Source: Desulfobacteraceae bacterium 4572_19
GTDB lineage: Bacteria > Desulfobacterota > Desulfobacteria > Desulfobacterales > NBLS01
Direction: 5' to 3'
DNA length: 5,095 nt
Assembly (NCBI GenBank): GCA_002084385.1
Contig: NBLS01000117.1
Span: 1 to 5,095 of the forward strand
Position numbers and translations under genes: made by a program. Below, in pieces: positions 1 to 5,095 of the stretch (the first letter of the stretch is position 1; each line of letters opens with the position of its first letter). Below the pieces are notes generated by a model. It was not told the origin of the DNA, searched no databases, and saw only the letters and a program-made list of their open reading frames with translations.

Positions 1-1191
1 TTACTTTGCCATCAACTGCCCCACCGCCTTTTCCAAGCCGTCGAGGGAGAGTTCAAACATGGGGAAAATTGAGCCTATCATTTGAATTGTTTGGGTGTAG
101 CCCCACATATTTGCTTGAACAGGGTTTAGCCATACACAATGGGGAAAAGTTTCGGAAAGAAATTTTAACTGTTCAAGGCTTGGTTTTCCACTTCTGTCCT
201 GAATGTATATGGAGCCGTTGGTTGACATAAGTTCGTATGGTGCCATGCTGGCATCTCCTACGATAATCAGCCGAGTATCAGGGTCCAATCGTGTAAAATC
301 ATTTACATTAACAGGTTGTTGGTATCGTTGGGAATCTTTCCACATATGGGCATATATGGTGTTATGGAAAAAATAAGTTGAGATATCTTTAAACTGTGCC
401 CTTGCATAATCAAAAATTGTTTGAACAATTGAAATATAAGGATCCATTGACCACCCACCATTATCTATGGCAAGGATTAATTTCAGACGGTCTTTCATTC
501 CCCTTTCAAAAACTATTTCAATCTCCCCTGCATTTTTCATGGTTTGATAAATACTCTCATCAATATTTATTACATCTTTGGGACCTGCCGGTGTAAGATT
601 TCTTAAACGTTTTAATGCTTCACCTATCATTGATTGGGTTAAAGGTCCTTCTGTTGAATACTCTTTATACCTTCTTTCCCCTGCAACTTTTACAGCTGAT
701 CTGTTTTGGGAACCTCCGCCGACACGCATTCCCCCAGGGTGATGTCCCGAATGTCCAACAGGAGATCTGCCACCTGTGCCTATCCATTTACTGCCCCCAT
801 CATGGCGTTCAGTTTGATCTTTAAGTCTCTTTTTAAAGTAATCTATTAATTCATCGGGGGAGAGTTTGCTTAACTCTTTTTCATCAAGACCAAGGGCGTT
901 TGCAAGCTGTTTTGGATTTTTTAACCACTCATTTAACATGGAGTTTACAATTTCATCAAGCTCTAACCCTTCTGTATCAGGAAGTTCGGCTCCTTCAAAA
1001 TAGTGTGCAAAAATCCTATCGAAAAGATCAAAATATCTTTCACTTTTTATAAGAACAGTTCTTGCTGTTATATAAAAATCATCTAACGAGTTTATCATGC
1101 CGTTTGAAAGGGCTTTTTGAAGTTTTAAAAAAGATGTGGGGCTGATGGGAATACCCATATCCCTTAACTTATAAAAAAAATTGATAAACAT
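1..1191 (-). CDS. CoxE-like von Willebrand factor A domain protein, partner of a MoxR ATPase
   Basis: This is a complete 396-residue protein, starting at ATG 1191-1189 and ending with TAA at 3-1. Residues 1-70 form a helical N-terminal region typical of VWA proteins encoded beside MoxR ATPases. Residues about 129-165 are a Gly/Ser/His-rich linker. Residues about 233-396 form the VWA fold. The metal site (MIDAS) loop reads DNGGWS at 243-248 instead of the canonical DxSxS, keeping the first Asp but replacing the first Ser with Gly and the second with Trp. A later loop VGDAS (311-315) supplies a further acidic residue, D313. There is no signal peptide or membrane segment, so it should be cytoplasmic. 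The start is supported by an AAGGTGG-type ribosome binding site at 1202-1196 that overlaps the TAA stop of the upstream ATPase gene, which implies translational coupling. Family knowledge: such proteins act with MoxR ATPases in the activation or metal insertion of a client complex. The client is not visible here, so the specific role is unknown. Confidence 0.85.
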   Translation of the reverse strand: MFINFFYKLRDMGIPISPTSFLKLQKALSNGMINSLDDFYITARTVLIKSERYFDLFDRIFAHYFEGAELPDTEGLELDEIVNSMLNEWLKNPKQLANALGLDEKELSKLSPDELIDYFKKRLKDQTERHDGGSKWIGTGGRSPVGHSGHHPGGMRVGGGSQNRSAVKVAGERRYKEYSTEGPLTQSMIGEALKRLRNLTPAGPKDVINIDESIYQTMKNAGEIEIVFERGMKDRLKLILAIDNGGWSMDPYISIVQTIFDYARAQFKDISTYFFHNTIYAHMWKDSQRYQQPVNVNDFTRLDPDTRLIIVGDASMAPYELMSTNGSIYIQDRSGKPSLEQLKFLSETFPHCVWLNPVQANMWGYTQTIQMIGSIFPMFELSLDGLEKAVGQLMAK

Positions 1192-1200
1192 AAAGCCACC

Positions 1201-1960
1201 TTAAAATATTCTGCGTCGAATTAAACCAGCTGCCGCCCTTGCATAATCAGGACTTTTTTTAAACAGGATACCAAGATATGGTATCTCTCCTTTTACCAGT
1301 TTGCTTGCTTTAAAATCGGGGTCAACCTGAAGAGCACGTAACCAGTTTATAAGCTCCCTTGTGGCTGGTTTTTTTTCAATAGCATCTAACTCTCGAAGTT
1401 TGTAAAAAGCCTGAATAGCATTTTCGGCAAGTTTTGAATCAATTTCAGGAAAGTGGGCATTAATTATTTTTCTCATCATTTTAGGATCAGGAAATGCAAT
1501 ATGATGAAAATTGCACCTTCCAAGAAATGGATCTGAAAGGTCTTTTTTAGCATTTGATGTAATTAGTATTACAGGTCTTTTTTTTGTTTTTATCGTTTTA
1601 TCAGTTTCTATAATATCAAACTGCATCTGATCTAACACGTCAAGCATATCATCTTGAAAATCTGTATCGGCTTTATCTATCTCATCAATAAGAAGAACTG
1701 TCCGCTCATCGGCTGTAAAAGCCTGTCCGATTTTTCCCATTATAAAGTGCCTCAATAAGTTTCATGCTGGATTTTACATTTAAAACAATAAGGGGCATTT
1801 TCAAAGTTTGTGCAATGGAATACCCAAGCATGGTTTTTCCTGTACCCGGCTCGCCTTTAAGAAGAAGTGGCATTTCCAGAGCCATGGAAATATTAACTAT
1901 TTTTGCAAGTTCATCATCCAACACATAATTGGATGCACCTGTAAATTTCTTAATTGTCAT
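1201..1960 (-). pseudogene. MoxR-family AAA+ ATPase, disrupted by internal deletion with frameshift
   Basis: Two overlapping minus-strand frames together encode one MoxR ATPase. The first (1960-1706, 84 codons) starts at ATG 1960 with an AAAGGAG site at 1974-1968, 7 nt upstream. It carries Walker A GEPGTGKT (residues 36-43) and follows the family up to KLIEALY (residue 73), then runs 11 foreign residues to a TGA at 1708-1706. The second frame picks up family sequence at MGKIGQAF (from 1740). It carries Walker B LLIDEIDKAD, a sensor-1-like ITSNAKKDL, a candidate arginine finger in DPFLGRC and a sensor-2-like PATREL, and ends with TAA at 1203-1201. The two parts give about 252 residues, against roughly 280 for close relatives as I remember them. 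The gap lies between Walker A and Walker B, so around 80-90 bp appear lost and not merely a base inserted. The ATPase is probably inactive. A GAGG at 1753-1750 lies 9 nt before ATG 1740 and could allow restart, giving a product without Walker A. A sequencing or assembly error is the main alternative. Confidence 0.85.
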
Positions 1961-2399: not shown

Positions 2400-2612
2400 A
2401 TGTTTGGAATTGGAATGCCGGAATTAATAATTATTCTTGTAATTATTCTTATTATTTTCGGAGCCGGTAAGTTACCGGAAATAGGATCGGGGATTGGAAA
2501 GGGAATAAAAAATTTTAAAAAGGCAACTAACGATGAGCTGGAAGAAAAAAAACCGGATCAAGAAGAATTAGAGGGAAAGCAAACCGATAAAATACTCGAA
2601 AAAAATGCTTAA
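2400..2612 (+). CDS. tatA: Twin-arginine translocase subunit TatA/TatE family
   Basis: This is a 70-residue protein with the standard TatA layout. It has a short N-terminus (MFGIGMPE), a membrane segment of Leu/Ile/Val at about residues 9-20, the invariant FG hinge (F20-G21), then AGKLPEIG and an amphipathic helix with basic residues to about 42, followed by a charged Glu/Lys-rich tail. TatA forms the pore-like oligomer that moves folded twin-arginine proteins across the inner membrane with TatC. The length suits TatA better than the usually longer TatB. No tatB or tatC is in the window, so this is either an isolated tatA or one of several copies. It is transcribed with glnD, whose start is 24 bases downstream. 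Its TAA stop (2610-2612) is in the same frame as glnD. Confidence 0.93.
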
Positions 2613-2636: not shown

Positions 2637-5095
2637 ATGCTTCAAAAAACTTTAAAACAAAATAGGGAAAAACTTACAGCAAGTTTTATCAAGGGGAAAG
2701 TTCCTAATTTTCTTGATCGCAATGCACAGCTTATAGATGATTATTTTTGTGACAGTTTTGCAGAGAGTAAAGCCGGCCTTACGATAGGTATTGCAAAAAA
2801 CCCATATGCAATTATTGCCCTTGGAGGGTATGGCAGGCGAGAGCAATGTATCCATTCAGATGTTGATTTTCTTGTTCTTTTTAGAGATAAAATTCCAGAA
2901 AAAGTAGGAGAGCTTGTTAGAGAATTTGTATATCCCTTGTGGGATGTTGATCTGGAAATTGGTTATGCGGTACGAACCATCGAAGATTGTGTAAAACTAT
3001 CAAGTAAAAGCCTTGAAACCCTTACAGCTCTTTTAGATGCCCGATTTATCTGCGGTGCTTCAGATCTTTTCTGGGAGTTTGAAGATTTATTTATAAAAAC
3101 CGTTATCAAGCCGGAATCAGAAGTAATTATTAAATTAATTATTGATAGAAATCGAAAACGGCATGAAAGGTTTGGTGATTCAACATATCTTTTAGAGCCA
3201 AACATTAAAGATGGACAAGGCGGATTGCGTGACTATCATGCAATGCTCTGGTTTGCAGGAATTAAAAAAAATTTTAACCGTCCAAGGGATCTTGAATATA
3301 ACGGATGTATCTCCCGTGAAGAAAAAGTTGCCTTACAACAATCTCTTAATTATATATGGAATGTTCGCAATAGGTTGCATTTTATTACCGGCAGGAAATG
3401 CGATCAACTCTATTTTGAGCATCAGATTTCATTGGCAACAATGCTTAAATTAAAAGAAAAAAATGGTCAGCGACCAGTAGAGATATTTTTAAGCACCCTG
3501 CATGGAAAAATGGAAAACCTAAAACAGTATCATTTAATGCAAATTGATATGTTAAAGCTTTCCAGACAGGTTATTATAAAACAGCAAGAGAACGTAGTTG
3601 TTTTTGAACGTATATTAGTGACACAGTCGCGTAAATATAATGTTCTTTTTGAAATGCATAATACAGGTTTTCTCGGACAATTTATTCCGGAATTTAGAAA
3701 AATTGAAAATAGAATTCAATATAATCAATACCATCTTTATCCTGTTGATTTGCACTCTTTACGAACAGTTCAGGTTCTTAAAGATTTCAGAAATATGAAT
3801 GGTGGAGCTTGCAATAAATTATGCTCCGAGCTGTATTGTGGATTAAAACGCCGAAAACTATTATTATGGGCGGCTCTGCTCCATGATATAGGTAAAGCAG
3901 ATTCAGATTATGATCACTCAAAAACCGGAGCTAAAATTGCACGGGTTGTATTAAAAAGAAGTGGTATTGAAGGGACTTCTTTGGAAGATATTGTCTTTTT
4001 AATTGAAAACCATCTGTTTCTTGTAAAAATAGCGACAAGAAGAGATCTCCATGATGAGGATACGATTTTTTTCTGTGCCGGTAAAATTAAAGATGCAACC
4101 CGATTAAAAATGTTATTTCTATTAACTATAGCGGACTCTATTGCAACCGGACCTAAAGCATGGAATGAATGGACAGCTCATCTTTTACACGATCTTTTTA
4201 GCAAGGTTTTAGATGCTTTGAAAAGTGGAGAACTGTCTAAGAGAAATGCATTAAAAAATCTTGGTTATAAAAAAAATATGATTTGCACCTGTGCAAAAAC
4301 TCCGGCAGAAAAAAAAAAGCTGTTGGCAAAAGTAGAAACCATGTCCATTCGTTATCTTCTTTCAACTTCATCAAGGGATATTCAAAAACATATTAGACTT
4401 TATGAAAACCTGGGAAGTGCTGAATTTGTTTGGGAAATTGATAGAAAAGAGGGTTCTGGATTACGTACAGTTACAATATGTGGAAAGGAAAGATCCGGTT
4501 TTTTTTCCAAAGCAGCTGGTGTTTTTGCTCTTAATGGTATATGGATTGTTGAAGCACAGGGTAATGTTTGGGGTAATAATATTGCTTTTGATATTTTCAG
4601 GGTAAAGCCTCCTGTTGATTTGCTTTATGAAGATAAGGTATGGGAAAAAACCAAAAAAGATCTAAATCTTGCACTTCAAGACAATACCTATCTTTCTGTA
4701 CTCCATAAAAGCACGGATAAAGTTGGTATGCAAAGAAGAACCAAACCCCATAGCATTGAACCCTATCGTATTAATTTTGACAATCACTCATCAAGGTTTT
4801 TTACTATTATAGAGGTGTTTTCGTCTAACTATAACGGACTGCTTTTTAGAATAACGGATGTTCTTGATAAGTGTGAATTAGATATTAGAATTGCAAAAAT
4901 TTCTACAAAAGTTGACCAGGTGGTTAATGTGTTTTATGTAAGGTCTGCTGTAAATGGTTTAAAAATTAATAAAAAAGATACAATAGAGAGTATAAAAAAG
5001 TTGGAAATTGTAGTCGAAGCAAAAAGAGTTTCTCAGGTAATTGATATGATAGTAAACACAGCAAGTACCGGTAAAATAGGCGATGGAAAAATTTT
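2637..5095 (+). CDS. glnD: Bifunctional PII uridylyltransferase/uridylyl-removing enzyme GlnD, 3' end off the window and fused to a PII tail
   Basis: An open frame of 819 codons has no stop before the right edge. GlnD adds UMP to PII when glutamine is low and removes it when glutamine is high. Domain order is standard. The nucleotidyltransferase has GGYGRRE (63-69) and SDVD (74-77, D75 and D77 catalytic), then the GlnD-typical EPNIKDGQGGLRD (187-199). The HD hydrolase has H373, LHDIGK with H416-D417, DHS with H427, H459 and D500. ACT domains lie at about 610-660 and 719-788. All key residues are present, so both activities are predicted. ATG 2637 is the first possible in-frame start after the tatA stop, but no Shine-Dalgarno sequence precedes it, so translation may depend on coupling to tatA. 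An out-of-frame ATG at 2632 overlaps it. Just where GlnD should end, near residue 788, the frame instead continues into PII-like sequence (see 4998-5095). GlnD identity is certain; the true C-terminus is not. Confidence 0.95.
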   Translation, partial: MLQKTLKQNREKLTASFIKGKVPNFLDRNAQLIDDYFCDSFAESKAGLTIGIAKNPYAIIALGGYGRREQCIHSDVDFLVLFRDKIPEKVGELVREFVYPLWDVDLEIGYAVRTIEDCVKLSSKSLETLTALLDARFICGASDLFWEFEDLFIKTVIKPESEVIIKLIIDRNRKRHERFGDSTYLLEPNIKDGQGGLRDYHAMLWFAGIKKNFNRPRDLEYNGCISREEKVALQQSLNYIWNVRNRLHFITGRKCDQLYFEHQISLATMLKLKEKNGQRPVEIFLSTLHGKMENLKQYHLMQIDMLKLSRQVIIKQQENVVVFERILVTQSRKYNVLFEMHNTGFLGQFIPEFRKIENRIQYNQYHLYPVDLHSLRTVQVLKDFRNMNGGACNKLCSELYCGLKRRKLLLWAALLHDIGKADSDYDHSKTGAKIARVVLKRSGIEGTSLEDIVFLIENHLFLVKIATRRDLHDEDTIFFCAGKIKDATRLKMLFLLTIADSIATGPKAWNEWTAHLLHDLFSKVLDALKSGELSKRNALKNLGYKKNMICTCAKTPAEKKKLLAKVETMSIRYLLSTSSRDIQKHIRLYENLGSAEFVWEIDRKEGSGLRTVTICGKERSGFFSKAAGVFALNGIWIVEAQGNVWGNNIAFDIFRVKPPVDLLYEDKVWEKTKKDLNLALQDNTYLSVLHKSTDKVGMQRRTKPHSIEPYRINFDNHSSRFFTIIEVFSSNYNGLLFRITDVLDKCELDIRIAKISTKVDQVVNVFYVRSAVNGLKINKKDTIESIKKLEIVVEAKRVSQVIDMIVNTASTGKIGDGKI
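4998..5095 (+). other. PII (GlnB/GlnK) C-terminal fragment fused in frame to GlnD
   Basis: From about residue 788 of the GlnD frame the sequence reads KLEIVVEAKRV, then IDMIVNTA, then STGKIGDGKI to the edge. This matches the C-terminal region of PII proteins in order and spacing. In E. coli GlnB the equivalents are KIEIVV, VDTIIRTAQ and TGKIGDGKIF, starting near residue 59. The last part is the B-loop signature that contacts ATP phosphate. The N-terminal half of PII, including the T-loop and its uridylylated tyrosine (Tyr51), is missing: the preceding residues are the end of the second ACT domain. No start codon with a ribosome binding site marks a separate glnB here. Either the fusion is real or a deletion of roughly 200 bp or more joined glnD to a neighbouring glnB. 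The recognition of PII sequence is firm; its origin is inferred. Confidence 0.8.

Follow-up and report, generated by a model that had tools for sequence, protein, structure and literature searches.

The in-frame fusion of GlnD to the C-terminal part of PII at the right end of the window (the whole stretch of DNA that was analysed, 5095 nt) is almost certainly not real. Results of our analysis indicate, with a probability of about 0.9, that the locus is an ordinary one of a Desulfobacteraceae-like bacterium and that the contig forming the window is faulty, three stretches of DNA having been lost and their flanks abutted. The three losses of DNA on this contig, together with the presence of intact, separate proteins in matching records, argue for an ordinary gene pair and not for a fusion. 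The features of the window are as follows:

1..1191, minus strand: VWA-like gene adjoining moxR, 396 aa (weak assignment; PF05762, 14 bits vs. a cut-off of 26.4)
1201..1960, minus strand: gene of a moxR-type AAA+ ATPase, split over two frames with ORFs of 84 and 184 aa, the name MoxR being taken from annotated matches
1741..1742, minus strand: join inside moxR that breaks the frame; compared with the intact protein P0054, 83 nt are lost (28 codons less 1 nt)
2400..2612, plus strand: small gene, 70 aa by translation, which we take to be TatA/E-like
2637..4997, plus strand: glnD, in which residues 1-317 are joined directly to residues 387-856 of the intact protein P0002 (870 aa); 787/787 shared residues identical
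3587..3588, plus strand: join inside glnD that keeps the frame; compared with P0002, 207 nt are lost (69 codons)
4997..4998, plus strand: glnD/glnB join, where glnD codon 787 (codon 856 of P0002) abuts glnB codon 60
4998..5095, plus strand: glnB codons 60-91, the C-terminal part of PII, the rest being cut off by the contig end; 32/32 residues identical to the intact protein P0173

The fused frame and its PII tail

Translation of the ORFs of the window gives an 819-aa frame (2637-5093, plus strand) that is open up to the contig end and contains no stop. Its GlnD part stops at residue 787 (nt 4997), and its last 32 codons (4998-5093) encode PII. A reading made earlier from the sequence only had described a GlnD frame that passes without a stop into PII lacking the T-loop and its target tyrosine, and both of these observations were borne out. 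The 32 residues are identical to residues 60-91 of P0173, an intact GlnB of 112 aa; the first 59 residues of GlnB are therefore missing (the number of lost codons had been put at about 57), and the contig ends short of the last 21. In this protein family, GlnD uridylylates GlnB at the T-loop tyrosine. P0173 has a tyrosine at position 51, which, following the numbering of E. coli PII, we take to be the modified one, and this part of the protein is absent from the window.

In a search of the PDB with the 46-aa tail of the frame, the best match was a PII chain (E = 8.1e-07), while the 85-aa tail matched two PII models of NCBIfam (E = 7.9e-06 and 3.2e-05). With Pfam PF00543, the whole frame scored 14.1 bits and the 85-aa tail 17.8 bits, i.e., below the curated gathering cut-off of 25, as is to be expected of a fragment. 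A chance likeness to PII is ruled out by the PDB match and by the exact identity of all 32 residues with P0173.

Intact counterparts of the three damaged genes

The search for GlnD homologs was scored on residues 700-819 of the window frame and yielded 52 proteins from 147 scored candidates, a sample of matches to this region rather than an inventory of the whole GlnD family. The list is headed by the protein of the window itself (P0001; longest contig 5095 bp), followed by P0002, a GlnD of 870 aa that has its own C-terminus and whose longest contig has 6131 bp. The alignment of the window frame with P0002 comprises 317/317 identical residues, 69 residues present only in P0002, a further 470/470 identical residues, and 14 C-terminal residues that again occur only in P0002. 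With the larger piece of MoxR as query, the scoring being capped at 8000 candidates and the best 120 matches listed, an intact MoxR of 280 aa was retrieved (P0054; longest contig 6131 bp). The two MoxR pieces of the window are identical to it over 73 and 179 residues (252/252), with 28 residues of P0054 lying between them. In a search around the 32 PII residues, P0173, an intact GlnB with its T-loop (longest contig likewise 6131 bp), was found among the best 120 of 1580 matches.

Altogether, the window agrees with these records at all 1071 residues that can be compared (GlnD 787/787, MoxR 252/252, GlnB 32/32), an identity at the protein level that covers these three genes. The equal longest-contig value of 6131 bp suggests that the records of intact GlnD, MoxR, and GlnB share one contig. 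P0173 is listed in two contigs, and its source is given as "-", the mark of window-encoded proteins, yet no more than 32 of its 112 residues are encoded there. The sequence-only reading had named a stop codon followed by a full glnB as the sign of an assembly artefact; these are seen in the protein records P0002 and P0173, that is, at the level of proteins and not of raw reads.

Three stretches of missing DNA

Compared to the intact records, the window lacks three stretches of DNA within 3.3 kb: 83 nt in moxR, 207 nt in glnD, and, at the glnD/glnB boundary, 14 glnD codons, the stop codon, the spacing, and 59 glnB codons (222 nt plus spacing). The loss of 69 residues after glnD residue 317 and the broken moxR had gone unmentioned in the sequence-only reading. 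The split of moxR by the 83-nt loss (1706-1755, minus strand) is the earliest sign of a faulty contig.

The sequence common to the joins and to the lost DNA amounts to at most 0 nt (moxR), 2 nt (inner glnD), and 3 nt (glnD/glnB), values that are upper limits judged from codons or protein sequence. With at most 0-3 nt shared at the joins, a collapse of repeats is disfavoured as the cause of the losses.

The segment missing from the inner part of glnD lies between the GlnD_UR_UTase and HD matches. While the window copy has 0 residues there, 50 of the 51 other GlnD matches have 65-71; the remaining one, P0042, is incomplete (520 aa) and has its start within this segment. Such a consistent presence makes the inner 69-residue segment look indispensable.

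The organization of glnD and glnB in related bacteria

The comparison with glnD-glnB loci of relatives that had been proposed with the first description of the frame was performed for 56 related loci from genome contigs, mostly labelled as Desulfobacteraceae or Desulfobacterales. In 56/56 of these loci, glnD closes with its own stop codon, and none carries a GlnD-PII fusion. The start of glnB lies -20 to +30 nt from the glnD stop in 26 loci, 31-200 nt from it in 9, and more than 200 nt from it in 10. With the filter that was used, glnB was not found downstream of glnD in the remaining 11/56; in one of them, L045, a PII match about 1.5 kb downstream of glnD had been dropped by this filter. A count of fusions by matches to the GlnB N-terminus (first 5 residues) could miss a cut-down PII, which is covered by the search of the 56 loci with the 32 PII residues (E up to 0.1). 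The plus-strand matches of this search all start either beyond the stop codon of glnD or a long way upstream of this gene. In some of the related loci, glnB starts before glnD ends; the overlap measures 14 nt in 11 of the 56, 4 nt in 9, and 1 nt in one more, which hints at a coupled translation of the genes of the enzyme and its substrate.

The database search for GlnD proteins with C-terminal PII, proposed likewise, gave no support for such proteins: a PII tail was detected in 0 of the 51 other GlnD matches (phmmer and Pfam, E up to 1 in each), the only one among the 52 being that of the window. A known fused GlnD-PII architecture was considered and rejected, there being no second case among the 51 other matches or the 56 loci. 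Among the titles and abstract openings listed in a literature search, none of the titles reports a GlnD-PII fusion.

A fusion protein maintained by selection, which would sense ATP or act as a pseudo-substrate in cis, as had been suggested for the window, is very unlikely. The open frame and the exact match to C-terminal residues of PII are what one would expect of it. However, such a protein would be devoid of the 69 inner residues that 50/51 other GlnD matches have, of the last 14 residues of GlnD, and of the first 59/112 residues of PII; no other case occurs in the 51 further matches or the 56 loci, and intact, separate versions of GlnD and GlnB exist. With two further losses of DNA on the same contig and no PII tail in 51 matches and 56 loci, the suggested sensing of ATP in cis or built-in pseudo-substrate is left unsupported. 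A genuine fusion would mean that GlnD bears a piece of its own substrate as a tail, an arrangement unseen in the 51 other matches and the 56 loci.

The origin of the losses

The ordinary locus would comprise moxR and the VWA-like gene on one strand, and the TatA-like gene, glnD, and glnB on the other. Most likely during scaffolding or joining, contig pieces from this locus were probably abutted and the gaps between them dropped. The loss between the end of glnD and glnB would then have kept an open frame by chance, giving rise to the apparent fusion. Three unmarked gaps would most simply account for three clean-edged losses without any amino acid change in the compared genes, and we infer that the losses arose in assembly. 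Two facts speak against an artefact, namely, that two of the three joins are in frame, where chance gives about one-third for each, and that P0173 is listed in a second contig.

The retention of the frame at two of the three joins would also fit a real strain variant, in which three recent deletions fused and damaged glnD and glnB and broke moxR, in a process of gene decay in a subpopulation; the 0-3 nt common at the joins could come from end joining as well. Nevertheless, such a variant is unlikely, as it would take three deletions, each an event of its own, within a very brief period, with 3 losses inside 3.3 kb against 1071/1071 identical residues. Quite improbable, too, is a minority strain with a real glnD-glnB fusion and two other fresh deletions, in which the working GlnD/GlnB switch has been lost; if true, this would be a case of a Desulfobacteraceae-like bacterium in which control by PII was lost naturally. 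The simpler explanation offered previously was that a deletion removed the last part of glnD together with the first codons of the adjacent glnB. Its anatomy agrees with the alignment of the window to P0002 and P0173, but a real deletion is less likely than a loss in assembly. Under the faulty-contig explanation, the organism most likely makes GlnD and GlnB as ordinary, separate proteins from genes lying side by side, and GlnD would uridylylate GlnB at the T-loop tyrosine.

Other regions of the window

The VWA-like gene gave no sign of loss: among the best 12 rows of its comparison with related loci, 9 show gap-free alignments over the full 396 residues, one aligns over 395 residues, and two are cut by the end of the locus.

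Nested inverted repeats are present between moxR and the TatA-like gene (2227-2335). Their 30-nt arms, 87% complementary, are enclosed by perfect 14-nt arms, GTAAGCGTTCACAA and TTGTGAACGCTTAC, and a similar stretch, GTGAACGGTTACAAA, was noticed by eye at 2372-2386. A search of Rfam at the gathering threshold gave 0 matches in the window, the inverted repeats included.

Significance and comparison with known systems

The apparent fusion leaves the biology of nitrogen regulation unchanged. It calls for caution, as adjacent co-directional genes that lose the intervening DNA in a contig can mimic an in-frame fusion of an enzyme and its substrate. A disrupted gene nearby on that contig is an inexpensive alert to such a false fusion.

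The window frame scores above the NCBIfam equivalog cut-off for GlnD, the [protein-PII] uridylyltransferase/uridylyl-removing enzyme (TIGR01693; 540.4 vs. 519.4 bits), and contains the GlnD_UR_UTase, HD, and ACT-like matches. It differs from GlnD in that it is devoid of 69 inner residues and, beyond the last ACT-like match, of the final 14 residues and its own stop codon, and enters PII. Similarly, its terminal part corresponds to the PII signal protein GlnB (PF00543) in 32/32 of the residues 60-91 of P0173 but is devoid of the 59 N-terminal residues, the T-loop tyrosine among them, and of the last 21. The order and the strand of the two genes are the same as in the glnD-glnB pairs of relatives, whereas in those pairs glnD ends with a stop codon and glnB is a separate gene.
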